DNA of 64,000 nt from Agarophyton chilense (Eukaryota > Rhodophyta > Florideophyceae > Gracilariales > Gracilariaceae). Each line of letters begins with the position of its first letter. Position 1 is the stretch's first letter. Positions 18,742 through 49,253 of the stretch are shown here, piece by piece. A program made the position numbers and the translations under genes. A model generated the notes under the pieces. That model was not told the origin of the DNA. It searched no databases and was given only the letters and a program-made list of their open reading frames with translations. The stretch is taken from the NCBI GenBank assembly GCA_030374765.1, contig JARGXX010000001.1, positions 1,984,001 through 2,048,000 of the forward strand. The letters run 5' to 3'.

Positions 18742-21065
18742 TTGGCGTCTGTAAGATACATCAGGCCCTGGCGGCTAACAAAACTCAACCGTAATCGTTT
18801 CTACTTTACATTGTTAATCGTTTCAAAATACCCAGCTTTTGATGAGCTCCGACAACGGCTAATACGTCCATCAATACTTGCTCTTTTCCGTCAAAACTTT
18901 CCACACGTCGCGGATAAAAATGTATTAAACGGGCAAGTCGAATGCACATTGCTTCTGAAACAAACAAACGCTGACTTACTACCAGTATGGTATTGGAGCC
19001 GCATTTACAAAAAAGCCGAACGAGACCACACAATCACCGACCAGGAATGTCTTGCCGTTGTCTGAGTTGTCCTCTACTTACGGCCCTATCTGAAGTCCCA
19101 GCGCTTCAGTATCCGTATGGATCATCATTCCCTACGCTGGATACTTGAACTAACGGACGCATCCGGACGTCTCACCTTGTGGAGACTCCGCCTGATGGAA
19201 TACGACTTAGAAGTCGTCCACGGTCCGGGGATTATGCACAAAGCGGCAGATGCTCTGTCACGTATCCGAACAGAGGCCATGAAATAACCCTGTTCGTCGA
19301 GGAGGTGCCCTGCCTTACTGTAACGGAAGAGGAGGGTTGAAATCCCGAGATGGTTGCAATCCGGAGATGGTTTCAACTGTTATTATAGACGGTCAGGCCT
19401 ATGCTGATATGGCAATTGACTGGCTGCAAGCCGAATGGGTCTCCACCAGCGTTCTCGAACCGGTCTTGCCCGTCTCCTCCGAGGGGACAGACATTACACT
19501 GAATACGATTGAATAATTCGTGCAAGCTTAATCACACGACGCTTTCAGCAAAGCCGTTCGAAACCACATTTGATGGTTCTTTCTGCGTCGAAATTAACCG
19601 AAAAGTTATTTTGGTGCATCGCTCCGGTCTGAACGGCTCCTTCCAAAATGTTTTTCCAAGCTCTCTCTAATCATGGATTCTCTACTTGGGGCATTACATG
19701 CGAATAGTCGGTCATTCATATTCCACGCGGATGTACGAGTCCATACTGTGGGACTTCTATTGGCCGCAGAGAGCTAACGACGCTTTCCAAACCGTTCAGG
19801 ATTTTTGCTGCTGTGCTCATGTGCCGGGTACCCACTATCGATCGCAGAAGTACTTTAATCTCTTCCTCGCCGCGGGTTCCCTGAATTTTGTCGCCGCGGA
19901 CATCTTTGTTCCATTTCCGAAGTCTATTTACGGTTCCTAGTACATACTGGTAATCATAGATGGGTTCAGCAAGATATGCCGCGCTATTCCACTTCGGTTC
20001 ACGACCGCACCGATCTTCGCCAAAGCGTTTCTTGAACACAAGGCTTACCCGTACGTCCGACAAGGTACCCAGTTTGTCTCGAAGTTTTTCAAGTCCCCTT
20101 GTATTCTCCCCGGCATCAAACACTTTCTCATTAAGGCGTATAGCCCGCAAACAAACGGGCAAGGCCAGCGATTTAAGATGACTTTGGTACAACCCCTGCG
20201 ACCGAACTGGCACCCGTTTGTTCAACCGCTCATGTACGGCTATAATTTGTAGATAAACCGGTCAGTTGGGATATATCCGTTTGACTTGGTGATAACACGC
20301 ACCTCACCTGGTGTGGTGTTGGATGAACCCAGCTCCGCTCTGGAACGGGGGACCCACGCACAACCGACAACGGTTCAAATGAAACGGAACACCTTTACAC
20401 ATCTTAAGGCTACCCTCCAAACCACACAGCGTAAACGAACGAATGCGCGACAGCGCTGCAAAGCAAACTTTGACAGATCTGTACGGTTTACGCGGCATCT
20501 GGAAGAAGGGAACAAAGTGTTCATAGACCGTTACACAAACTGCGAGGATGGTGGGGACCTTGCCGATCAGGACTGCACTTACCGAAAGTTACTTCCCAAG
20601 ACGGTTGGACCCTTCAACGTCATTTCCGCTACGAAAGATACCGTAACGATAGATGAAGACGGTAAACATATTACTCTCAGCGTCAATCGCGTAATGAAAG
20701 AGCTCCACTTTCCCCTCCTCTCCGTTCCGGCGGTGCAATCCCTTACGGTTCCGGCTTCCTCTGATTCGGAAGGGACTTCTTCTGAAAAAACGACACCCAC
20801 CCCGGCGACGAATCTCACTTCTTTCTCGGTCAGCACAGTACAAAGAATCGTCGAAGCCATTGTCACTCATCGCCACGCACCGAAATGTTTCCTATACCGT
20901 GTTCGATGGTACGGGTACAACCATGCCGACGTCACGGAAGAACCACCGGCACATATACCACAACACTTTATCCACCGCTACTGGCGTCTCATAACCGTTC
21001 GTTTACTGCACCAACCTAAGAAGGGGAGACAGAACTACCACAAGACGGTACTTTACAACCATTAA
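18742..21065 (+). pseudogene. gypsy pol fragment E: RNase H, integrase, chromodomain
   Basis: The plus strand starts in the RT-RNase H linker (LRQRLIRPSILALFR). RNase H follows with DHTITDQECLAVV, a TGA at 19063-19065 where tryptophan is expected, then MDHHSLRWILELTDASGRLT and HKAADALSRI. Integrase has the zinc-region stretch ILWDFYWPQRANDAFQTVQD near 19736 and LNFVAADIFVPFPKS near 19890. The second and third catalytic blocks read VRQGTQFVSKFF and SPQTNGQGQRF, so both the aspartate (DNGTQF) and the glutamate (QVERF) are lost. A 259-codon frame from 20286 ends in a chromodomain (VQRIVEAIVTHRHAPK to YRVRWYGYNHADVTEE). Confidence 0.75.
20823..20985 (+). other. chromodomain at the end of gypsy E integrase
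   Basis: STVQRIVEAIVTHRHAPKCF followed by LYRVRWYGYNHADVTEEP shows the chromodomain pattern of beta strands with the conserved W-Y/K-G turn and a C-terminal helix (HFIHRYWRL). In chromoviruses this domain targets integration by reading chromatin marks. Here WEP of the consensus is EEP. Confidence 0.65.
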
Positions 21066-22895: not shown

Positions 22896-23897
22896 TTAAG
22901 TTTCCACATGATAATCCAAACCCCCAGCCCAATCTGGCGGAGGCACGTTGAAAGGTGTGTATGCCCTGGTGTAAACCGCCTCTAATGACTGACGTTGGGC
23001 CGGGGATAGTTCGTTGAGCGCGTGGTATAATTTGTGTGGTTGAATATATCCATTAAAATTCTTATCGCTTTGCCAACGTCCTCGGCATTTTATATCCTGG
23101 TCGGCGAGACGAGCATAAAGCTTGTCGGTGGTCGCCCCGCCGTACCTAAGCATGTGTGGAGTGATCACGAACGGAATCCCTAGACATTCGACGGCTCTTC
23201 GGAGATCGGCCCGAAATCGGGCTGGTTGATACTGGAATAGAACTTCTGCTTCTGCGAACTTCCTTCTTCTAGCTAATTTGTTTAACAAAACCGCCAAAAA
23301 ATACGGCCTTATCGTGACGGACTCATTACGGCCACGTTTTCCTATCGCAATGTCGAGCATCCCATAGCGCGGCCGCTTTTCGGTTAGTGGCAGCATGGCG
23401 ACGTCCAATACTTTTAGCTGCAATAAATCCCCTAGCCTGAGATACCCATCAAACAGCAGCAGCAATCCTACCCCCAGATCGGGATCCCCGTGTTTGAAAA
23501 GATCCAATGCCGATCCGTATACAACGCTTTCCGGACAGACGCCAAAATGAAGGTTAGGGCGCGACGCTGTCCAGCCTTGTATACTTTGATTCTCCAACAC
23601 CAACTTCCCGCTGAGTTCAGGGAGAAAAAATTCCAACGCTAATTTTGCCTGGGCTACAACTCCTGCCTTCAATTGTTGATTACCATGAAAAAGATCAATT
23701 CAATACCTCGTGAACAACTTATCAACTTCTTCTGCGTTCCTACATCGACGGCAAGCGACTGGTTGTTGCGCCAGCCACTCCACGAAATACCCAAGGTTCT
23801 TACGGTATCCCTGCAGCGTTGCCGCTTTTACCCGCCGGTGAGCTAGACCAAAAAGCCCGTGACGGTTCATCGGCTGGATTTTTCCCACTAGGAACAT
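22896..23897 (-). pseudogene. DIRS-type tyrosine recombinase, one in-frame TGA
   Basis: The frame runs from 23897, meets TGA at 23700-23702, and continues in the same frame to 22896; removing that codon would give about 330 residues. The C-terminal 258 residues contain the tyrosine recombinase signature: an arginine in FDGYLRLGDLLQLK, then HMLRYGGATT with the HxxR pair, then a tyrosine in NFNGYIQPH. Sequence between them (KCRGRWQSDKNF) fits the G-RW block of DIRS recombinases. The enzyme would integrate the circular DNA intermediate. The 5' end overlaps the end of the RNase H frame by about 98 bp. The TGA probably makes this copy inactive. Confidence 0.8.
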
Positions 23898-27799: not shown

Positions 27800-28115
27800 T
27801 CAGTCGACCAAACGCAGAGGTGTCAATTTTTCGTCAAGTCTCCGGAAATAATAATCCCTACGCAGGCTCTGGATAAAAACAAACCCGGCCGTTTTCGTCC
27901 AATCGGTTTCTAAGGCGTACGGAAACAGCTTCTCAGCTTCTTTCGGAAAAAAAGAGTACTGCGTAGGATTTTTTGAAGCTCCATCTCGGTCAACGGGCAC
28001 AGCAACCGTAATAGACAGATTAATGTGCCTTAAAGAACCCACAGATGCACGGAAGAGGTCCGGATAAAATATTGAAACGGACATCTTTAGCCATTTCCAG
28101 TGTAGACATCTGTGT
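27800..28115 (-). CDS. unknown ORF upstream of DIRS gag, 5' truncated by an LTR
   Basis: The 94-codon ORF begins at ATG 28084 and ends at 27800, but the frame stays open upstream (LHWKWLK) to the LTR edge at 28116, so the true start has been cut off. Its C-terminal 25 residues are present in DIRS copy 1 as well, ending in TPLRLVD and a stop at the same point. I recognise no domain; the sequence is mixed aromatic and charged (FFPKEAEKLFPYALETDW). It could be an extra ORF of the element or the tail of a host gene captured by it. Confidence 0.45.
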
Positions 28116-28512
28116 TGATGGATGTTAAGTTGCGCGCTGTACGATGTCTACGTGGTCGAGTAGGATTTTGAAGAAGGGAGAGAGGTGCGACACTTGCAGT
28201 TGAGACAAGTAGCACAGCAGAAAACTGATCGGGCACACTAACAGTCGTCATGTTCGTCCTATAAGTTTCCACCCGGGATCTTCGGGTGGGCTTTCATAGC
28301 TGTCCGCAGCCAAATAACCTAGGACGCTGCAGTGGGCTATATGTTGCGAAACAATTCAGGTTTGTTCAACACAAATCGTATGGACATCACACCGCTCGTG
28401 AGCCATTGCAAATGCGCCCACAGTGACTGCAAATGCGTAACAGAACTACTGTACTGTAGTGGCAACAGTGCACCATTTGTTGCGCTGATGTGCGAAGACG
28501 GTGTGGCCGACA
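28116..28512 (-). repeat. 3' LTR of gypsy F (78 bp deleted)
   Basis: On the plus strand it starts TGATGGATGTTA and ends GGCCGACA, so the coding strand has TGTCGGCC at the LTR start. It matches 33078-33552 closely but lacks about 78 bp at 28312, present in the other LTR at about 33275-33354. Confidence 0.85.
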
Positions 28513-28599
28513 CAACAGTGCCCTATGATTTTCAATGTGGAAACAATAGATAATCAATTGGACGGAAGCAGCGACGGAGCGCTGACGCTGAGTTCTGTT

Positions 28600-33001: not shown

Positions 33002-33077
33002 GTTGTGTTGTGGTACTGCGCACACACTTGACGCACAAAAACCAAAACAACCGTACTCTTCGAGCGAAGCGCTTTAT

Positions 33078-33552
33078 TGATGGATGTTAGGTGGCGTGCT
33101 GTACGGTATCAACGTGGTACAGTAGGATTTTGAAGAAGAGAGAGAGGTGCGACGCTTGCAGTTGAGACAAGTAGCATAGTAGAAAACTGATCGGGCTCAC
33201 TCACTGTCGTCATGTTCATCCTGTGAGTTGCCACCCGGAAGCTACGGGTGGGCTTTTATGGCTGCCCGCAGCCAACTCAGTTGTCTGCTGAATTGTCCAT
33301 ACAAAGACTACAAGCGCAAAATAACATATTAGTATCGCTAAATTCTAATCTCTGTAATCTAGGACGATGCAGTGGGCTATATGTTGCGGAACCATTCAGG
33401 TTTGTTCAACACAAATCGTAAGGACATCACACCGCTCGTGAGCCATAGCAAAGGCGCCCACAGTGCCTGCAAATGCGCAACAGCCCTACTGTACTGTAGT
33501 GGCAACAGTGCACCATTCGTTGCGCAGATGGGCGAAGACCGTCCGGCCGACA
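33078..33552 (-). repeat. 5' LTR of gypsy F
   Basis: 475 bp, TGATGG...CCGACA on the plus strand, matching 28116-28512 apart from scattered substitutions and the 78-bp segment at about 33275-33354 missing from the other copy. The segment is A+T-rich, and either insertion here or deletion there is possible. Confidence 0.85.
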
Positions 33553-33772
33553 TAAGACTATGGTGCAGGTAAGAAGTTTGTTGCGGATGGTATGTAGATA
33601 TCTATAAATCTGGATATGCAAATGATATCCTTGTGATACATGCAAATATTCTTTTCATGACACTACAGTAAGCTGATGTCCGAATGATATCCTTGAATTC
33701 TCCGGAAACTATGCAATAGATATATCAGGTGATGTCCGTTCCAAAAAGCATTCTGACAGAACCTGGATATCA
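33553..33772. other. 220 bp of repeated-looking A+T-rich sequence
   Basis: GATATC occurs several times, with phrases such as CATTTGCATATCC and ATGATATCC, in the stretch next to the LTR. No gene is seen. Confidence 0.35.
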
Positions 33773-39139: not shown

Positions 39140-40003
39140 TGTAGGACAATGCCCCCAAGGGGGAAAACCTACGAAGACGTCCGGATCTTCCTCTCACGAG
39201 GTAACCGGCGCGGTAGAGCCCTCCCAGGGATCGGCGCGCAATGCCGGGTGCAAGCCGGAGCCGAACCGTCGCGACGGGCGCAGAGAGGCTGAAAGAAGCC
39301 GAGAATATCCGCCGAAGCGGTGCTTGCGTATCCTCTGAGAAGGCAAAACCCACGAGAGTGGCGAGCACGACAGGTGTCAGTGCGAGCCGCCAGAGCGGGA
39401 ATTGCCCAATGAAGGGGAGGAAAAAAGAAGGAAAATGGGAACGGAGGCAAGAGGGCGAGGTTGACCACGAGTCGCAAGAGGGGACTCGGGAATAGCCGGC
39501 ACTGCCGGGTGTAGCAAACCGTATACACGGGCGGAACCACGAAAGTGGGAATAGATACCCAACACACGAAGGCTGCTTGAATGTCCAAGGGGGTTGGGAA
39601 GCCGTGCACCACGGGAAATCTCTCTGTAAGGAGTTGTATATCCGCGCAGGCGGTTCGACCCAGAGCCAAGATCTGGAAGACCAAGATCACCCTTGTTGAG
39701 GAGACTTTACTGGACCTGCGGCCGCGAGGCCGGCGGCCTAAGTACTGTAGTCACCGTAGAATAGAATAAATAAAGTCTATCCTAAATAGCTAAATGTCCG
39801 TCTAACAAAAGGGGCCAATCTGGCGGCCACGTGTCGCGCGGGCGCTGCGGCCACGTGTATGGCACCCGGTCTCGCCGGTGCATCACCGGCGTTCCGGCCA
39901 TCGCCGTGAAACGGATTACTCCTACTCATAACGAGGTTGCACGCCGGAGGCTCCGGAAAAAATTTAAGCCCCCAAAAACCTCCCTGGAGGGCGTTGCTCT
40001 TCA
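39140..40003 (-). repeat. 3' LTR of gypsy H
   Basis: On the coding strand it starts TGAAGAGC and ends TCCTACA. It is nearly identical to 48389-49253; the only indel seen is in CCGCCGAAGCGG against CCGCGTAATGCGG. It contains two GGCCACGTGT phrases 25 bp apart. Confidence 0.95.
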
Positions 40004-40020
40004 TATCCCCCCCCTTAAGA
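40004..40020 (-). other. polypurine tract of gypsy H
   Basis: The minus strand reads TCTTAAGGGGGGGGATA directly before the 3' LTR start TGAAGAG. A purine run at this place primes plus-strand DNA synthesis. Confidence 0.85.
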
Positions 40021-40050
40021 CAGGGCGAACACCTCGAAGAGGAAGTCGGC

Positions 40051-41826
40051 ATGGCAGCTCGTCATGATAAGAGCGCGTGCGACACCGGGTCTCCGGAAAC
40101 CAACACACCTTCACGAAGGATCCCACGCCAGCTCTTCGCATCCGATTCCAACCACAGCACACCAACACGCACCATGTCCAACCCCGACCGTCATAACACA
40201 TCCGCGACTCCCGCCCTTGGCGGTTCCACCGGCTTCCGGTCCGCGCCCCACCCTGGCGATGCTACGACCCTCGCGTACGAAGACCGCCGTATTGGCGCCC
40301 GCTTTCGAGGACAGGCGGACCCACCGCAGTGGTCGACCTACGACGCCCTTGTGGGTGCAAATCCGAGAACTCGGCATGGCTCCGCGATGTTGCGGTATGC
40401 GCCTTGGTTTCACCCATTGGCTGTCCGCGACGAGGATTTGATCCAATCCTACACCGATAATTCGGAGATGCTCCCGGGGGACCTGCCCGGCGTGGTGACC
40501 ATGTCCTGGGATTGGCGTAATCGCATCGCCATCCCGGTACACCACATACTCCGCCGACGCGGTGAATCCTCTGCGGAGGCTCAAGCCGCGCTTGTGCGGA
40601 TCGCTTATCTCAGGCACCATCGGGCGCCTTTCGAGTTCCCGATACCGCCAGAGGTCGAATTCGACGTCCACCTTTACCGCACTCGCGGGGAAATGTCGTA
40701 CTGTGACCGTCTTAACGGATTGGAAACCCTCGCTTTGTGGGGCACACCAATCGCTCGGCAAGAAGCCCTTTGCTGGGCACGACCGATTCTCCGGGCAGAG
40801 TTCCGCTACCAACCGCGGCAGTCGCACTCAAACTTCTTTCAGAACTTCATCCGCGATGAGCGGCGTTGGCGGGCCCGGACCGGGTATTTCGTACCGTACC
40901 AGAACACGGAGATTGAACGCATCGCGCCTGCTCACCGACGTGGTCGGTACGTCAGTCTCCCAGACTGGTGGTCCTCCTTGGAGGCGTGCTGGGGTTGCTT
41001 CATTGAGCTGCCCCCAGTCTTCACCTATGTAGGGTCGTCGTTCTTGAACGATCCCCAGTCGGGGTGGTGGTCCGTCGTTGTAAGCGAATGGGCCGTCCGC
41101 ACTGCGGCTCTTATCCTCGCTGAGGCGTACGACCAATACCGATTGTGGTACGTGCCACCGCGTGTGCGGGCTGCGATCCGCCGTCTGGACATGCGCATCC
41201 CCCTCGGGGGCGAGGCGAACGAAGAAGAGATGCTGGGCCTCCTCGAATTTGTGGAGGGGGTCCAGTGGGATGAGGTCCCGCTGGAGAACTCCCAACGCAT
41301 TCAACCGCGTCGCGGGTCTGGCCCCGGACTCGGGAGGAATACCGCGCTAGCGGGGGATTTCATCTACTTCGACCCCTGGGAGTACCACGGGATCAGCCGC
41401 GAGGAAGCGGAAGCCAACCGGCATGCGCCGCGTGAAGCCCCGGCCGACCACCCGCGAGGGTATGTCGACTCGAGCGACTATTACCGCGGCTATGCGGATG
41501 GTGACCCGATGGTCGACAACCAACCGGGGGGTCCGGGTTACGCTCCGATGGAGGATGACGAGTCCGGCGAGGCCGGTGAGGAGTCCGTTGAATACGGTGG
41601 TGCGGCTCCATACGGGGCTGCTGATGCCGTGCGAACGGATTCCTATCCGACTCCATCGGTGGCGGGCCCGCCCGCAACTGCCGCTGGCGCGGAGCGGGGC
41701 GAGGTCATCGCGCGCTTCCTTCGGGAGGTGGGGCTTCGCCCTTCCGAGATCTCGGGTGATGTGGCCGCCATGCGGGATGCCTTAGCCAACCGCCTGGGCG
41801 GGGGTCCACCTCGTGCGGAGGAATGA
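40051..41826 (+). CDS. antisense ORF carried by gypsy H, unknown protein of 591 residues
   Basis: This long ORF lies between the 3' LTR and the end of pol, on the strand opposite to gag-pol. ATG codons at 40051 and 40174 are possible starts (591 or 550 residues). The protein has a Pro/Thr/Ser-rich N-terminus. A globular middle (residues about 85-440) holds about sixteen tryptophans, as in MSWDWRNRIAIPVHHILRRR, LPDWWSSLEACWGCF and SGWWSVVVSEWAVR. A Gly/Asp/Glu/Tyr-rich linker (about 460-550) and a short C-terminal helix (EVIARFLREVGLRPSEISGD) follow. No known retroelement domain is visible and I do not recognise the family. Antisense extra ORFs at this position are known in some plant gypsy elements; a relation is not shown. 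The composition is G+C-rich like the rest of the element. Confidence 0.65.
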   Translation: MAARHDKSACDTGSPETNTPSRRIPRQLFASDSNHSTPTRTMSNPDRHNTSATPALGGSTGFRSAPHPGDATTLAYEDRRIGARFRGQADPPQWSTYDALVGANPRTRHGSAMLRYAPWFHPLAVRDEDLIQSYTDNSEMLPGDLPGVVTMSWDWRNRIAIPVHHILRRRGESSAEAQAALVRIAYLRHHRAPFEFPIPPEVEFDVHLYRTRGEMSYCDRLNGLETLALWGTPIARQEALCWARPILRAEFRYQPRQSHSNFFQNFIRDERRWRARTGYFVPYQNTEIERIAPAHRRGRYVSLPDWWSSLEACWGCFIELPPVFTYVGSSFLNDPQSGWWSVVVSEWAVRTAALILAEAYDQYRLWYVPPRVRAAIRRLDMRIPLGGEANEEEMLGLLEFVEGVQWDEVPLENSQRIQPRRGSGPGLGRNTALAGDFIYFDPWEYHGISREEAEANRHAPREAPADHPRGYVDSSDYYRGYADGDPMVDNQPGGPGYAPMEDDESGEAGEESVEYGGAAPYGAADAVRTDSYPTPSVAGPPATAAGAERGEVIARFLREVGLRPSEISGDVAAMRDALANRLGGGPPRAEE

Positions 41827-42159
41827 CCGGAGCTTCCGGTAGAATGTAGGGCGGCGCCACTAGGGCGCCCTTGCCAGTAGTGAGAAATAAAAAGAAGAGG
41901 GTCGCCTTTCCGACGCCCTTTCCCAAGTCCGCTTCTTTCTTTCCGGGGTACCGGCCTTCTACCGGGGTTCCGACGTTGCAGGGAACCAGCCTAGCTGGGA
42001 GTTCCGTGTTTAACGGTGGGCGCTTCGCGCGCGGACCAGGTGACTGGCACGACCACCAACGACGTTGGGATAGCATGAGCGGTTGCTTCCTTCCCCGCGT
42101 TGGGGCATAGACGGAGATGGCGCGTGGCGCCATCAGCCATTCCATTCCGTGTTCACGGT
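41827..42159. other. 333 bp between antisense ORF and chromodomain scrap
   Basis: Overlapping frames on both strands show no recognisable motif, and no terminator or repeat stands out. Confidence 0.4.
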
Positions 42160-42366
42160 TTATCCCTCTTGGGCGTTTACCAGCGTGGCTGGGAGTGCGG
42201 TCCCCGCAAGGCGGTGGTATCGCATTACCGCGGAGCGCGGGAGGTGCTCGATGGGCTCCGGGGTGTCCCACTCCGGCCCGTATCCGTACCAGCGGGTCCG
42301 GTACTGGAGCACCCCGTGCTCATCGTAGCTATATCCGACAATTCGGTCGAGGACGTACTCCTGCAC
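42160..42366 (-). pseudogene. chromodomain remnant of gypsy H pol
   Basis: The minus strand encodes YVLDRIVGYSYDEHGVLQYR followed by TRWYGYGPEWDTPEPIEHLP and a helix (SAVMRYHRL), a good chromodomain resembling the one at 20823-20985 in gypsy E. A stop lies about 30 codons upstream of it in the same frame. It is therefore not connected to the RNase H frame, and the integrase that should precede it is absent. Confidence 0.75.
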
Positions 42367-42935
42367 GTAAACGTGCCGGCCTTGCCGGGTGGTGGTGACC
42401 CGAGCCTCAGTGCCGCGTGGTGCTGGGCTCGTCCTCGCCTATTCCGGGTCACCCGGTTTGTCATTCCGCTCTGCGGTTGTTGCCGAGTTGCCGGGGCTGC
42501 CGTACCGCTTCGCGGAAGTTGCCGGCGCGGCTGGGTTGTGTTTCCGCTGGGCGGTAGGGGCTTCCCTGAAGTCCGCTCTTACCGCGAGTTTGCGGGGGTC
42601 CTTCCGTCTTGGTAAAGGATCGCCGGAGGCTTTCGCTTGATTTGCGGCATGCGGCGTTCCCATTGGTGGGCAGTTTCCGCCGTGCAGTGCACCGTGGGCG
42701 GTGAGTGGTTCACCGTCCGGGCGATCCGCCTCCGCGGGGTGGCTGTCAGCCAATGACCGGGATGCCGGGTGCCCATTGGTCCGATCTCCCGCCCGGGTCA
42801 CGTGACCTTGAGGACGGGTGGTCGGACCGTCGCGGACGGTTGGCTCCGATTGTTCGGCAAGGGAGGCGGTTTTCGACTTGTCGTCGCGCCCCTTTTCCCA
42901 CATGGGGTTCGTACCGTTCTCAACGGAGTGGCTCG

Positions 42936-43976
42936 CTAGACCTGCTTGCGCAGCGCCCGCCGGAGTACCGGTATCGACCGAAACGCTCGGTGTGCGACCG
43001 CGAATGTGCGGGGCGCCCTCAGTTGCTTCCGCGCGATGCGGAGCGTCCGTAGGGTCTCGCTTCCCGGCTTCGGGTCTTTGAGCGCCTTGGTTCCCCTTGC
43101 GGGGTTGCGTGGCGGTCGGGTTGACCGCCGCGTCTCGCGGGAGCGGATTGGCGTCCGGCGACGATATCGGTTGCCCGCTCGGGGCCTTGCCCGGGGTGTC
43201 CGGTTAAACTTCCGTTTCGACGGCGATGCTTCCGCGATTGAGCGGGTCCCCTCTCCCTCCTTAGACGGAGCGACGGGTGATGGTGGGCTAACTGCATGGC
43301 GGGTATAAATACCGCTGCGCGGCGCCCGTAAGGGTAGCTGGCCGCGAGGGCCAGGTGTTTCCGGCATTGCCGGTGGTTCCGATAAAGTCGGTATATCGGA
43401 GAGACCCCGTGAGGGGTGCGGTACCACGGCAGGGCTTCTAAGCCATGGTGCCACGGGTACGGGTGTTTCATTCTCGCGCGCTGCGAGTAGCTCATCCATT
43501 TCCATGGTGTCTTCCCCGGTTTCGGGCCAATCCGACTCCGTCGGTGTTTCCCCTTCCAAGGTAAAGCACGGGATCTCGTCGACCTCCGGGTCGGCAAGTG
43601 CTTCACCTGTCGTAGGTAATCGAGAGAGGGCGTCTGCTTGGGTGTTCTGGACACCCTTTTTGTAGACGACCTCGAAGTCGAATTCCGCTAAGCGGAGGCG
43701 CCACCGCATTAAGCGGCCAGAAGGATCTGCGATGTTCAGCAGCCACCTCAACGAGGCATGGTCCGTGTACACGGTGAAATGAACGCCCATGAGGTATGGG
43801 CGCAGAGTGGATAGCGCCCAGACCACTGCGAGGCACTCCTTCTCGGAGACCGAGTAGTTGCGCTCGTGGACGTTCAGCGTGCGGGACCAATAGCCAATTG
43901 GTTTGCGTTCCCCCTCGGGGGTGGTTTGGAACAGTGCGCAGCCCACCTGGTGGTCGCTGGCGTCGGTGTCGATGGA
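42936..43976 (-). pseudogene. gypsy H pol, RNase H and basic tail (after TAG)
   Basis: The frame directly continues the reverse transcriptase frame beyond the TAG at 43977-43979. RNase H has DTDASDHQVGCALF, EKECLAVVWALSTL, YTDHASLRWLLN and NTQADALSRL, so all four catalytic acids (D, E, D, D) are present. After the domain come about 60 acidic residues (DPEVDEIPCF onward) and then about 150 Pro/Arg-rich residues (RSRETRRSTRPPRNPARG) ending at 42936. No integrase zinc finger or DDE core follows, which is not how active gypsy pol ends. The basic tail could be scrambled sequence replacing the integrase. Confidence 0.75.
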
Positions 43977-43979
43977 CTA
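43977..43979 (-). other. in-frame TAG stop in gypsy H pol
   Basis: The minus strand reads CCC TAG TCC ATC GAC, placing a stop just before the first RNase H block DTDASD. The frame is open on both sides. It is either a single nonsense mutation or a site of programmed readthrough. Confidence 0.85.
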
Positions 43980-46139
43980 GGGAAGCCCAGGTTTGGGCAA
44001 GGATAGGATGGGGGCTGTCGTAACTGCCTTAATCAAGGAGCGAAAAGATTCCGACTGATCGGTGGTAAATGGCGCAAGCTTCGGTGGCTGGCCCTTCCGC
44101 AGTAGCGCGTTTAGCGGAGCGGCGATATCCGAGAAACTCGGTATAAACCGTCGATAGACGTTGACCAGACCTAAAAAGGATCGAAGCTCCGTTTGAGTAC
44201 GGGGCTCCTTCGCCTCGCAGAGGGACTTGATACGAACTTGTTCGATCATTAACCGTCCTGGACGGATGACGTGCCCGAGATACTTCACCGTGTCGGTGAA
44301 GAACTCGCACTTCCTCAACTTGAGGGTTATTCCTGCGTCTCGCAGTACGGTCATCACGTCCCGCACGTGGGTCAGGTGATCGTCCAGGTTTCTGGAAAAG
44401 ACAATGATGTCGTCCAAGTAGACAAGGCACGTGCGCCACTTGAAACGCGACATCAGTATGTCTATTGCCCTTTGAAAGGTGGCCGGTGCATTGGTTAAAC
44501 CAAACGGCATCCGCTTGAAGCGGTAGGAACCCGAGTGGCAAACAAACGCGGTTTTGTCTCGGTCCTCTTCCCGGACTGGGACTTGCCAGTAGCCCCAGTT
44601 AGCATCCAGAGCCGTAAACACGGTAGCGTCCCCGAGCGAGTCTATACACTCGTCCATGCGCGGAATCGGGTAGGTGTCCCTCACGGTGACGGCATTGAGG
44701 CGGCGGTAGTCAACGCAAAACCGCCACGTGCCGTCAGCCTTGAGGGCCAGCACCACCGGTGAAGCCCAAGGAGATTGGGCTGGCTCGATGACTCCAGCAC
44801 GGAGCATCTTGTCCACCTGAAATTCTTCCTCCTCCCGAGCTTTCGGTCCCGCCCTGTAAGGGGGTTGTGCAACCGGACGTGCGTCCGGTAGCAAGTCTAT
44901 CCGATGTTCGGTTGTATTGATCTCACCCAGTGAGCCGTCCCACATTGTGGTAAACACGCGTAGCATTCCGCGTAAGCGGTCCCGGTGGGAGACCGGTACA
45001 TGACTCAGGTCCAGGTCCTCGAGGGCCTTGATCGGGTCTATCTTATCGTAGCTCGTAGGCTGTGCCCTGGTGTCAGGTGTGGGAACCGACGAGGTCGGAA
45101 ATGCATCCGTCTTGACGGTTTTATCGAGCGCCAACTGCTGTGCCTCCCCGGAGGTTTCCGCAACGGATACCGGGAGACCATCCTCGGTAGAGGGAGTTAT
45201 TCCGAGTACTTCGGCAGCTGTCACCTTTGTAGGGAGCATCGCGAGCGGGTGCGGCGTCACAGACCCAATGACTTGGTTCTTTGCCAGCGTCTGGGGAGCC
45301 TTTCCCAGATTGGCAACCAACACCCGGAAAGGGGAATTCGGCGTGACTTGCACGATTCCGTTCGCAACGGTTAACTGAAATTTCTCGTACAACGAGGGCA
45401 AGGGCTGAGCAACCCGAAGACCGTGTTGACGGGAATTGACTGAAACCATAGCCTGGCTCTCCGGGGGTATGGTTACTGACGAGGCAACGCGTAGCTTCGT
45501 AGAATCCCGGTTCGCAGGTGTGGGTTCCTGCGCAGCAGGTAGAGGAACGTGTTTCCTCGATGCCCGCTTCAGCGGTTGACGAACAATGGGGACGGTCGAT
45601 CCGTCCTCAAGTTCCACCTGCTTAAGGCGTGGGCGGGTGGCGTCGACAAACCTGTCGCAGTAGTCACATCCCAGTATAACTGGCGCGGCCAGCGAGCGGC
45701 ACACAATAAAAGTTAGTTTAACCACCATCCGCCCTAGCCTGACGACCAGGTCGATCACACCAACCGTTTTCAACGGGTTGTTATTGGCGTCTGACACGTC
45801 GGGTACCGTTTCAGAACGGATGAGTGACCGCAATGGCGGGGGTAAAACCGATTCCACAATAAAGTTCGGCCCAGCACCTGTATCCAGGACAGTGAGATGT
45901 CTCACCATAAACTGCGTGTACAGACCAAGGTCAGCGTAAACCTTGTAGTTACGCTTGGCCATTACCAAGACTCTATCCGGGATCCGGTTATTTCTAATCC
46001 GTATCCACGGTCGACGCAAAACACCGAGGTGTTTAGAGTCCGCGTCTGCGGTGTCCTTCCTTGTCAGGATTTTCACCGGGGAGCGAGGCATCGGCGCCTC
46101 GGGCGTCGTCAGCCTCAACTCTGAGGACGCCTCTCCCAA
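43980..46139 (-). CDS. gypsy H pol, protease and reverse transcriptase
   Basis: 720 residues from the first codon shown. The frame has no ATG at its start and extends upstream across the gag stop, which fits entry by -1 frameshift at 46160-46166. Protease lies at residues about 65-180 with the catalytic triad in VLDTGAGPNFI (D86) and VILGCDYCDRF. Reverse transcriptase spans about 440-640, with FCVDYRRLNAVTVRDTYPIP, FTALDANWGYWQVPV holding the first catalytic aspartate, PFGLTNAPATFQ, and VYLDDIIVFS (D576, D577). LRSFLGLVNVYRRFI is the connection block. All catalytic residues of both enzymes are intact. The frame ends at the TAG before RNase H. Confidence 0.9.
44409..44420 (-). other. reverse transcriptase active site YLDD of gypsy H
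   Basis: TAC TTG GAC GAC on the minus strand encodes Y574-L-D-D577 of pol. Confidence 0.9.
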
Positions 46140-46153
46140 AGGGGAGACTCCCT

Positions 46154-48274
46154 CTATTCTTTTCCCTGTACAGGGTCCTGGTCGGGCGAAGGCCCGACTT
46201 CCTCGGCAACGAGTGGATGATTCCGTTGCACGGTAGCTACCGCAGGAGTGGGTTGAGATCCACCAGCGTGGTTTGGCGCTGGTGCGGCGCGTGCCGGCTG
46301 AGCCGGTTTGTACCGAGAATTCGGAGTGTGAGCCAATGCGTTGGGGAAGTCTGTCTTCGCGCGGAGATATGACGTGAGTGGCACGGAGCCCTTCTCCTGC
46401 GGGGAGAGGACTTCGTAATTATCCACCACTCGCGCCATATCGCGTAGCGATAAAAGGCATTGCGGGGAGGTGTGCCCGCGCTCGTAGCACAAGTGGCACA
46501 CCAACGTCACTCCCGCGTTTCGCGGTACGGCATTCCGAGCATCGGTGTATCTTCCAGGTTCCCGGTTTCCAACCCATCCAGGGCGCTGACTTCGTGTCAT
46601 TCCGTTCGAGTACGGCATACGGGGGGCCGGAGTGCGGCGGTCATTAAGATAAAAGACCTGCCCGTTCTCCGTGTTCCTTGCGGTTGAGTCAACCGAGCCA
46701 TCCGTCGTAGACGGTAGTTCCGTTGTCTGAATAGATAAACCATCGTGATGGATGACATTCATATTGTCATAACCCTGTTTGGGGATGCCATCCGTCGCAA
46801 ATGACGGTGAAGAGGAGTCTGACTCAAGCAGCAATGCTTTAGCGGCCTTCGACCGGGTTCCCGGATTGCGTGCACGTAGTGCATCTCCCTCTGCGCGGGC
46901 AAACTGTATGAGTTCAAGGTAGGTCACCTTCGGCTCTTGTTCCCTGTAACGGGCGACAAGAGTCTTGATGGCTGGATCCAATCCATCAATGAACATCGTA
47001 CAGCGTTCCCCAGCGGGGTATACATTACCACAACGGTGGAAAGCCTTATTCAGGCGTACCGAGTAATCGGTCTCGAGCTCGCCGGAGCGTTGTCGAGTGT
47101 CCCGCAAAGCGAGTATCGCCGCTTGTATCGCGGAGTTCGTTGCGTAGGAACGCAGGCGGTACTGCACGGCCTCGGGCCAGCAGGTCACACCTCCTTCGGA
47201 GGCTCGCGACGAGCCCCGAACCGACAAAAACTGATCTTCAGCGACACCCCGTAGAAAGTAGAGTAGCGCCACGTAGGCTTGTCCTTCGTTCATTCCGAGT
47301 ATATCGGCTTCCGCTACAAAGCGGTGTAGAAAATCCAAGACCAGAATTGGATCATCCCCAGTAAACGACTGGTTACGAAGTGAAAGCTGCATCCGCTTGA
47401 TGCAGTCTTTCACTTTACCCGTGTCACGCGGTGTCCGACCTAAGGAGGAATCTTCTAGCCGGTAATACCGGTAGGACAGGAGTGTCCTGTACAGAGGGTT
47501 GGTGGGCTTCAAGGGTTTGAGGCCCGAATGTCGCCGACCCTTGGGGCGCGACCCGATGGCCCCGTAGGTGGCAGAGGACCGCTTTGAGCGGGAAGAGCGC
47601 CCATAACGATCCTGTGGGTCATCGCTCACCGACGAATCGGAACTCTCCGAGTCACTCGGTTTACCGTCCGACTCAGATGATGAGTCGGACGGGGGTCCGT
47701 GCTTACGGTTAGAATCCCGGTTCTTCCGGCTCTTCCAGTTCCGCCACTGGGTCACTCGATGAGAGACAACCGGTCTAGCCGCGTTCGCGGGCGAGGTTAA
47801 CGTCCTCTCGACCGACTCAAGTCGGCTTCGGAGACGCTCGATTCGATTCTCCATACCTTCTGCGAAGGAAGACGGAGCGCCAAAACACTCGAGTAGTGTA
47901 TTGACGTCCGACCGCAATACGCGGATATCCTCGGCTAACTCACTCGTAGGGGGGTTAGCGAGGCTTCCTCGTAAAGAGGTGAATTCCCTCGAGAGGGTAT
48001 TGTGAGCAGCCCGCAGGGAGCGGAGCTGCTCTTCCAAGCGTACAATCCGCGCTTGGTCGACCAACCGCGGAGGCGGAGAAACCACCGTTGCGACGGTCGT
48101 TAACCCGGAATCGGGCTGCGGGTCTTCAGTGCCGGTGACCGGTATCTCCCGGGAATGGGGTGTTGGAGCCAGGGCCTGTGGAACATCAGTGGCCCTGGCA
48201 TCACCGCCTTGGCGGGAACGGCTGCGTGTTGCAGGAGGCTCCATGCTAGGCGGTTTCCTTGGCATTGGCCACAC
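46154..48274 (-). CDS. gypsy H gag
   Basis: 706 residues to a TAG at 46154-46156. The domains in order are a short Arg/Ser-rich start, a coiled coil (about 75-165, with RIVRLEEQLRSLRAAHNTLS), a Ser/Asp-rich acidic stretch (about 205-240), and a capsid-like domain (about 265-490). The last part carries a classic CCHC zinc knuckle, C593-x2-C-x4-H-x4-C606, reading CHLCYERGHTSPQC, and a Pro/Ala-rich end. The protein would form the particle and bind the element RNA. ATG codons at 48274-48250 offer the start. The gene is undamaged, unlike gag in elements A and D, which align to it. Confidence 0.85.
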   Translation of the reverse strand: MWPMPRKPPSMEPPATRSRSRQGGDARATDVPQALAPTPHSREIPVTGTEDPQPDSGLTTVATVVSPPPRLVDQARIVRLEEQLRSLRAAHNTLSREFTSLRGSLANPPTSELAEDIRVLRSDVNTLLECFGAPSSFAEGMENRIERLRSRLESVERTLTSPANAARPVVSHRVTQWRNWKSRKNRDSNRKHGPPSDSSSESDGKPSDSESSDSSVSDDPQDRYGRSSRSKRSSATYGAIGSRPKGRRHSGLKPLKPTNPLYRTLLSYRYYRLEDSSLGRTPRDTGKVKDCIKRMQLSLRNQSFTGDDPILVLDFLHRFVAEADILGMNEGQAYVALLYFLRGVAEDQFLSVRGSSRASEGGVTCWPEAVQYRLRSYATNSAIQAAILALRDTRQRSGELETDYSVRLNKAFHRCGNVYPAGERCTMFIDGLDPAIKTLVARYREQEPKVTYLELIQFARAEGDALRARNPGTRSKAAKALLLESDSSSPSFATDGIPKQGYDNMNVIHHDGLSIQTTELPSTTDGSVDSTARNTENGQVFYLNDRRTPAPRMPYSNGMTRSQRPGWVGNREPGRYTDARNAVPRNAGVTLVCHLCYERGHTSPQCLLSLRDMARVVDNYEVLSPQEKGSVPLTSYLRAKTDFPNALAHTPNSRYKPAQPARAAPAPNHAGGSQPTPAVATVQRNHPLVAEEVGPSPDQDPVQGKE
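46160..46166 (-). other. -1 ribosomal frameshift heptamer between gag and pol of gypsy H
   Basis: The minus strand reads CAG GGA AAA GAA TAG in the gag frame, so the heptamer G GGA AAA lies two codons before the gag stop with exactly the X XXY YYZ phasing. Slipping back one base gives GGG AAA AGA ATA GAG, the pol frame. Downstream the sequence can fold: TCTCCC-CTTT-GGGAGA, and GGCGTC pairing with GACGCC around an inner CCTCA/TGAGG hairpin. Confidence 0.75.
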
Positions 48275-48373
48275 CGTCTCGACGGAAGAATAGAAAGCAA
48301 ACCGGTGAGACCGGAGAAAACCCGTTAAACGGAAAACAACCTCAGAGAGGACACAAGCGGTCTTGACTTCTAA

Positions 48374-48385
48374 GTCGGGAGACCA
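48374..48385 (-). other. primer-binding site of gypsy H
   Basis: TGGTCTCCCGAC on the minus strand begins three bases inside the 5' LTR end and is identical to the site of gypsy D at 18348-18359. The plus strand reads GTCGGGAGACCA, as the 3' end of a tRNA with CCA would. The match may extend further (TTCTAAGTCGGGAGACCA). The tRNA was not identified. Confidence 0.8.
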
Positions 48386-48388
48386 ATT

Positions 48389-49253
48389 TGTAGGACAATG
48401 CCCCCAAGGGGGAAAACCTACGAAGACGTCCGGATCTTCCTCTCACGAGGTAACCGGCGCGGTAGAGCCCTCCCAGGGATCGGCGCGCAATGCCGGGTGT
48501 AAGCCGGAGCCGAACCGTCGCGACGGGCGCAGGGAGGCTGAAAGAAGCCGAGAATATCCGCGTAATGCGGTGCTTGCGTATCCTCTGAGAAGGCAAAACC
48601 CACGAGAGTGGCGAGCACGACAGGTGTCAGTGCGAGCCGCCAGAGCGGGAATTGCCCAATGAAGGGGAGGAAAAAAGAAGGAAAATGGGAACGGAGGCAA
48701 GAGGGCGAGGTTGACCACGAGTCGCAAGAGGGGACTCGGGAATAGCCGGCACTGCCGGGTGTAGCAAACCGTATACACGGGCGGAACCACGAAAGTGGGA
48801 ATAGATACCCAACACACGAAGGCTGCTTGAATGTCCAAGGGGGTTGGGAAGCCGTGCACCACGGGAAATCCCTCTGTAAGGAGTTGTATATCCGCGCAGG
48901 CGGTTCGACCCAGAGCCAAGATCTGGAAGACCAAGATCACCCTTGTTGAGGAGACTTTACTGGACCTGCGGCCGCGAGGCCGGCGGCCTAAGTACTGTAG
49001 TCACCGTAGAATAGAATAAATAAAGTCTATCCTAAATAGCTAAATGTCCGTCTAACAAAAGGGGCCAATCTGGCGGCCACGTGTCGCGCGGGCGCTGCGG
49101 CCACGTGTATGGCACCCGGTCTCGCCGGTGCATCACTGGCGTTCCGGCCATCGCCGTGAAACGGATTACTCCTACTCATAACGAGGTTGCACGCCGGAGG
49201 CTCCGGAAAAAACTTAAGTCCCCAAAAACCTCCCTGGAGGACGTTGCTCTTCA
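48389..49253 (-). repeat. 5' LTR of gypsy H
   Basis: 865 bp, nearly identical to 39140-40003, starting TGAAGAGC and ending CCTACA on the coding strand. Confidence 0.95.

Follow-up and report, generated by a model that had tools for sequence, protein, structure and literature searches.

A conserved antisense reading frame with a nearly lysine-free predicted product in a Ty3/gypsy retrotransposon family of the alga Agarophyton chilense

Antisense genes of retroelements and the host element

Retroviruses can encode antisense proteins, that of HTLV being named HBZ. As for LTR retrotransposons, antisense open reading frames (ORFs) between pol and the 3' LTR, denoted aORF-3R, have been described in maize Grande (gene23), rice RIRE2, Silene Retand, PvRetro13 and fungal Boty, and the functions of such accessory ORFs in plant and fungal elements are described as unknown (PMC7264820). 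The antisense gene of Grande has its own promoter and encodes a nuclear protein, and regulatory roles have been proposed (PMC7264820, PMC11963269). TRP28 of Retand carries the Transposase_28 domain (PF04195), and its lineage is described as non-chromovirus (PMC11963269).

The ORF described here is of this known kind. It shares with aORF-3R the position between pol and the 3' LTR, the antisense orientation and the presence in most copies of the family (PMC7264820). It differs in that no known domain, PF04195 included, was found in it, in being carried by a chromodomain-bearing element and in its lysine-poor product, the comparison being one of descriptions rather than of sequences. The arrangement also recalls the antisense proteins of retroviruses such as HTLV, whose gene is likewise read from the 3' LTR side, as we infer for the present ORF (PMC11963269, PMC7264820, PMC10186651); host and element class are different, and the likeness is limited to gene arrangement. 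In the open-licence PMC literature that we searched, we found no description of this protein family, of an alga as the host of a chromodomain-bearing carrier or of a lysine desert in an aORF. The passages of the Ectocarpus transposon paper that use the word 'antisense' concern small RNAs.

The window analysed is a 64,000-nucleotide stretch of contig JARGXX010000001.1. Its Ty3/gypsy element is oriented with gag and pol on the minus strand and the antisense ORF on the plus strand. The 3' LTR (39140..40003, minus strand), the presumed source of the antisense transcript, and the 5' LTR (48389..49253, minus strand) differ by nine mismatches and one gap over 865 columns and are thus 98.8% identical. 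These limits give an element of 10,114 bp (39140-49253), in agreement with the 10.1 kb of the initial annotation. By eye, no clean target-site duplication is seen in the bases flanking the LTRs. The frame at 46154..48244 (minus strand), open from an in-frame ATG, is called gag because of its position, as no significant Pfam family was found for 46157-48232. The pol frame at 43977..46418 (minus strand) encodes the reverse transcriptase (RT; RVT_1, 4e-36) and the start of RNase H and ends at an in-frame stop. It is followed by 42939..43973 (minus strand), in which the integrase has been lost and RNase H (RT_RNaseH, 9e-36) runs directly into a C-terminal part of pol.

Relative to long-form relatives, approximately 1.28 kb including the integrase are missing at a junction at 43436..43453 (minus strand), and in Pfam searches of the window copy RT and RNase H match and integrase does not. 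The same comparison assigns 42160-42936 to the pol C-terminus; the chromodomain falls at about 42357-42237, and the stop codon of pol is 42160-42162. A stop near 42439 cuts this stretch in the window copy, leaving the chromodomain-containing C-terminus (42160..42441, minus strand) behind it; the same segment of locus L050 matches Chromo. The long-form loci L037 and L050 have an integrase core (5e-9 and 2e-10) after RNase H. Their match to Chromo (PF00385) at the end of the integrase is marginal for L050 (E 2e-5, 25.0 bits for a cut-off of 25.1) and weaker for L037 (E 3e-4, 21.1 bits for the same cut-off). The long form thus has the RT, RNase H, integrase and C-terminal chromodomain of chromovirus-type Ty3/gypsy elements and differs from them by the extra antisense gene, a likeness that rests on domain content.

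We considered that the element might lack an integrase by nature and rejected this idea, as a deletion has occurred in the window copy and in others of like spacing. Among the matches listed for 123 near RT copies, the RT-to-ORF distance is about 3020 bases, as in the window, for 28 and about 4300-4310 bases for 62; 16 have other spacings and 17 have no listed ORF partner. The integrase-lacking form with its equal spacing near 3020 bases is present in many copies, which suggests that these copies share one deletion and were mobilised in trans.

Length, placement and selection

The antisense ORF (40051..41826, plus strand) runs from the ATG at 40051 to a TGA ending at 41826, i.e. 591 codons, or 638 from stop to stop. 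The initial annotation, which had reported a 591-codon frame with alternative ATGs at 40051 and 40174 opposite to pol, is borne out: the frame is open and pol is on the other strand. From the second ATG (40174..41826, plus strand), the ORF has 550 codons, none of them for lysine. In a set of 29 copies picked by ORF similarity, the first ATG is kept in 26 and the second in all 29. At its start, the ORF is separated from the 3' LTR by 47 bases. It converges with pol, the two stops facing each other 333 bases apart. A candidate poly(A) signal of the antisense transcript, AATAAA, lies 59 bases past the stop (41886..41891, plus strand) and is found at 58-59 bases in 52 of 56 loci with a matching ORF tail, some copies being counted twice. 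As it is shared by descent, this conservation is weak evidence. In the LTR, TATAAA or TATATA occurs on neither strand, and plain TATA occurs twice on each.

The G+C content of the ORF DNA is 0.63, and the initial annotation had voiced as its main doubt that such DNA favours long chance frames. In 600 simulated sequences of 8.4 kb with the local dinucleotide make-up, the longest open runs had a mean of 271 and a maximum of 482 codons. None reached 638, and a Gumbel estimate places the chance of such a run at 4e-5. Together with the selection described below, this length answers the doubt. By codon usage, the ORF frame does not stand out, as its correlations with gag and pol (0.67 and 0.58) are similar to those of plus frame 1 (0.58 and 0.67) and minus frame 1 (0.61 and 0.66).

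Further evidence for coding comes from a divergent subfamily, B. From a copy (C128) whose RT is 87% identical, we fetched 1 kb where the RT spacing predicted the ORF. In this piece, L071, a homologue of the antisense ORF has the expected orientation; it is 60% identical across 302 amino acids and has one stop. Subfamily B is represented by this one piece of one copy, and the comparison covers codons 242-541, i.e. the Trp-rich core and the acidic linker (40774..41673, plus strand). Between the window copy and L071, dN and dS are 0.32 and 1.09 by NG86 (ratio 0.29) and 0.31 and 1.53 by YN00 (ratio 0.20), and the differences at the three codon positions are 0.24, 0.26 and 0.51. Omega is 0.24-0.28, with a bootstrap range of 0.17-0.40, when six copies of subfamily A (that of the window and five more) are compared with L071. 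In the other frames, dN exceeds dS by NG86, except for minus frame 1 (dN 0.34, dS 0.84), whose third positions coincide with those of the ORF frame and which contains 6 and 11 stops in the two sequences. The ORF protein is under purifying selection between subfamilies A and B over the codons compared, which provides the Ka/Ks below 1 and the conserved frame that the initial annotation had named as support. We are nearly certain that the ORF is protein-coding and under selection.

The recent copies give a different picture. The genome searched comprises 79.8 Mb in 135 contigs, and the best 74 of 1893 matches to the 591-residue protein have 92-100% protein identity; 46 of these 74, a set ranked by ORF similarity, are stop-free. 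We also used 29 copies chosen by a neighbouring piece of pol, excluding the window, for which the ORF alignment begins at 40553, where the coding frame is plus frame 2. Over codons 169-591, 13 of the 29 are open and in frame, six have stops only and seven are frameshifted, so that 26 hold this part of the ORF intact or broken; two are without it and one is truncated. Without these last three, the true frame gives an omega of 0.96 for terminal branches and of 0.87-0.88 for internal ones. In the same set, omega is 0.78 terminal and 1.83 internal for the integrase (17 copies) and 1.01 and 0.69 for the pol C-terminus (29 copies). The ORF-picked set gives 0.75 terminal and 0.82 internal after collapsing identical rows from 30 to 27; it is biased, as its copies were ranked by ORF similarity, and the lower ORF divergence among them carries the same ranking bias. 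For ten RT-picked pol copies, ranked partly by their own protein, the values are 0.60 and 0.42. Near-neutrality of the recent copies decides nothing, because the pol of the same copies is also without purifying selection. The combination of indels and neutrality, named earlier as refuting the ORF, is seen in very recent copies, where pol behaves alike.

Among the matches listed, the ORF lies downstream on the opposite strand, the strand examined, for 106 of the 123 near RT copies. Of 27 divergent RT copies, with both strands examined, 18 have an ORF of the B kind or of a third type on the opposite strand, 2985-4224 bases downstream, and none has one on the RT strand, among the matches listed. 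The remaining nine, which have no ORF among these matches, may be misses, as the figures cover only the matches listed. The best 150 of 1627 matches to L071 comprise seven of its own kind (92-100% identity), 35 of the third type (65-68%) and 108 of the window's kind; the third type, assigned by the longer match, is characterised by position and identity only, and 30 of its 35 listed matches are without a stop. The RT search and a search with 200 residues were scored for their best 150 of 3583 and 150 of 1360 matches, respectively. The antisense location downstream of pol is thus established by sequence for two subfamilies and by position and identity for a third. A pattern for its core motif has 147 matches in the 80 Mb genome and none in a reversed control, and all the places among the matches listed are nearly identical to the motif of the window.

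A lysine desert in a protein of no known family

The earlier description of the protein as one of unknown family holds for the collections that we searched, as Pfam, PHROGs, NCBIfam and PDB sequences gave no match, by sequence or by profile. Scans that reach close relatives only yielded no match to the peptide patterns in viral contigs, and 31 matching stretches in prokaryote genomes of which none is a confirmed relative. An origin from gag was tried and set aside, hhalign against gag having given nothing. Judged by its composition, the protein has a disordered-looking N-terminus of 75 residues and a Trp-rich middle, and residues 481-520 form an acidic/Gly linker with a net charge of -11. The first reading of the sequence had proposed this core and linker, which are confirmed; its C-terminal helix appears only in a very weak model, the single-sequence AlphaFold prediction having a mean pLDDT of 32.6.

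The ORF protein is almost free of lysine. It has a single one (K7) in 591 residues and none in the 550 residues from the second ATG, and the piece of subfamily B, from one copy, has none in the 298 amino acids read. By comparison, the integrase-to-chromodomain part of L050, of the same G+C content of 0.63, has 35 in 762, gag (G+C 0.58) has 21 in 692, and in four ORFs from other parts of the window (G+C 0.42-0.50) the number is 15 to 40. Lysine triplets are not avoided as DNA, since the other five frames of the ORF contain 4-18. The ratio of AAR to AAY codons is 1:18 in the ORF versus 35:28 in the integrase-chromodomain part (Fisher p 6e-5); the test gives 0.003 for the ORF versus gag and 0.005 for the B piece. 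This is a post hoc observation on two subfamilies of common ancestry; the Fisher value remains significant after a factor of 20 for other residues that might have stood out.

In recent, near-neutral copies, 16 of 285 amino-acid changes in codons 242-541 create a lysine. Among the 174 amino-acid differences between A and B, about 9.8 lysines are expected and none is seen (p 6e-5), a number that selection against charge changes in general would also lower. Recent near copies have gained one to six lysines each (27 counted), as dead copies would. With 584 lysine-free residues (8-591) and 0 of 298 in one B copy, the protein is a lysine desert, i.e. a conserved stretch of at least 150 residues without lysine, and shares this feature with the lysine-desert proteins described previously (PMC10169902, PMC10665810). 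It differs from them in having no known domain of the ubiquitin system, the likeness being one of sequence alone.

Lysine deserts lower the ubiquitylation of some proteins (PMC10169902), and selection is proposed to favour them in proteins that come into contact with the ubiquitin system (PMC10169902, PMC10665810). Phages of Mycobacterium have more of them than those of Bacillus, which was read as an escape from pupylation (PMC10665810). Residues other than lysine can also be ubiquitylated (PMC6769291, PMC4303697), so that a lysine-free protein avoids the ordinary form of the modification but not these forms. The conserved lysine scarcity gives this antisense accessory ORF a property that can be measured and tested and that hints at a mechanism. 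As the family has a high copy number (the 147 core-motif matches) and several subfamilies, evolution within one genome can test the idea.

Possible roles of the antisense gene

We favour, with a probability of about 0.6, the reading that this chromodomain-bearing Ty3/gypsy family has, in the ORF, a genuine accessory gene whose protein acts in trans and may be protected from ubiquitin tagging by its lack of lysine. The antisense mRNA would start in or just inside the 3' LTR, cross the ORF and terminate near the AATAAA at 41886. The resulting protein of 550-591 amino acids would work in trans on the element's behalf, either by regulation in the nucleus or by shielding against host defence, and it probably serves the element's own cycle. 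It is tempting to speculate that the lack of lysine prevents tagging by a host defence which labels the proteins of transposons with ubiquitin; alternatively, the protein might work beside the ubiquitin machinery. That the desert exists for escape from ubiquitin is a tentative proposal. Still more doubtful, though conceivable, is that in this alga, beyond land plants and fungi, a retrotransposon lineage has an antisense accessory gene of its own whose product selection has purged of lysine as an anti-ubiquitin counter-defence. Phages with lysine-free proteins in hosts that tag with Pup would offer a parallel.

Other readings share part of this evidence. The protein could be a DNA-binding transcription regulator, like the role proposed for TRP28 in plant Retand, with an incidental lysine bias. 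Position and orientation are those of the TRP28 aORFs (PMC11963269) and the protein is Arg-rich (64 of 591). However, it is net acidic overall (65 Lys and Arg versus 80 Asp and Glu), PF04195 has no match in it and a genome search for this domain scored one candidate, elsewhere and below the cut-off. The scarcity of lysine is moreover strong and is kept in the B piece, and we consider such a regulator possible but on the unlikely side. A different idea is that the antisense transcript itself does the work, by pairing with the sense RNA or as a source of small RNAs that restrain the element, the ORF being secondary. Antisense RNA roles have been proposed for plant aORFs (PMC7264820). Four Piwi-family matches in the genome (contigs C6, C80, C4 and C27, E 1.4e-78 or better) make small-RNA silencing likely in this host. 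An RNA role nevertheless leaves protein-level selection and lysine avoidance unexplained, and a transcript ending near 41886 would overlap the sense RNA in its 3' part only, leaving gag and pol uncovered, which makes this account improbable.

The Piwi-family matches would also suit a silencing suppressor of the Argonaute-hook type. Such hooks are GW/WG motifs that act in silencing suppression, and subfamily A has a WG at 314-315 and a GW at 338-339, in a protein alignment with 14 of the other 29 ORF-picked copies. L071 lacks both motifs, so that we give this reading very little weight. Least credible is a chance open frame in G+C-rich DNA that yields no product. The G+C content, the seven frameshifted copies among 29, the neutral look of recent copies and the indifferent codon usage would fit it, but it has to face an open run well above the simulated maximum, the low omega and third-position pattern relative to the divergent subfamily, and open homologues similarly placed in the other types. 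The accessory protein gene remains our preferred reading.

Other repeats were noticed in the window and elsewhere. At 20286-21065 (plus strand) lies the end of a different gypsy-like polyprotein with a C-terminus that, by eye, is chromodomain-like. Direct repeats at 28110-28515 and 33072-33555, about 5 kb apart and 87-91% identical, flank minus-strand frames that resemble gag-pol by eye and probably delimit a second LTR element. The ORF at 22896-23672 (minus strand) resembles a tyrosine recombinase by eye and possibly comes from a DIRS/Ngaro-like element. As for other copies of the family, three (L012-L014, G000:C68:3136681-3159847) are 9197 bases apart and two (L019 and L020, G000:C77:294389-308410) 9249 bases apart, with equal match scores, which suggests tandem elements with shared LTRs or an assembly artefact.
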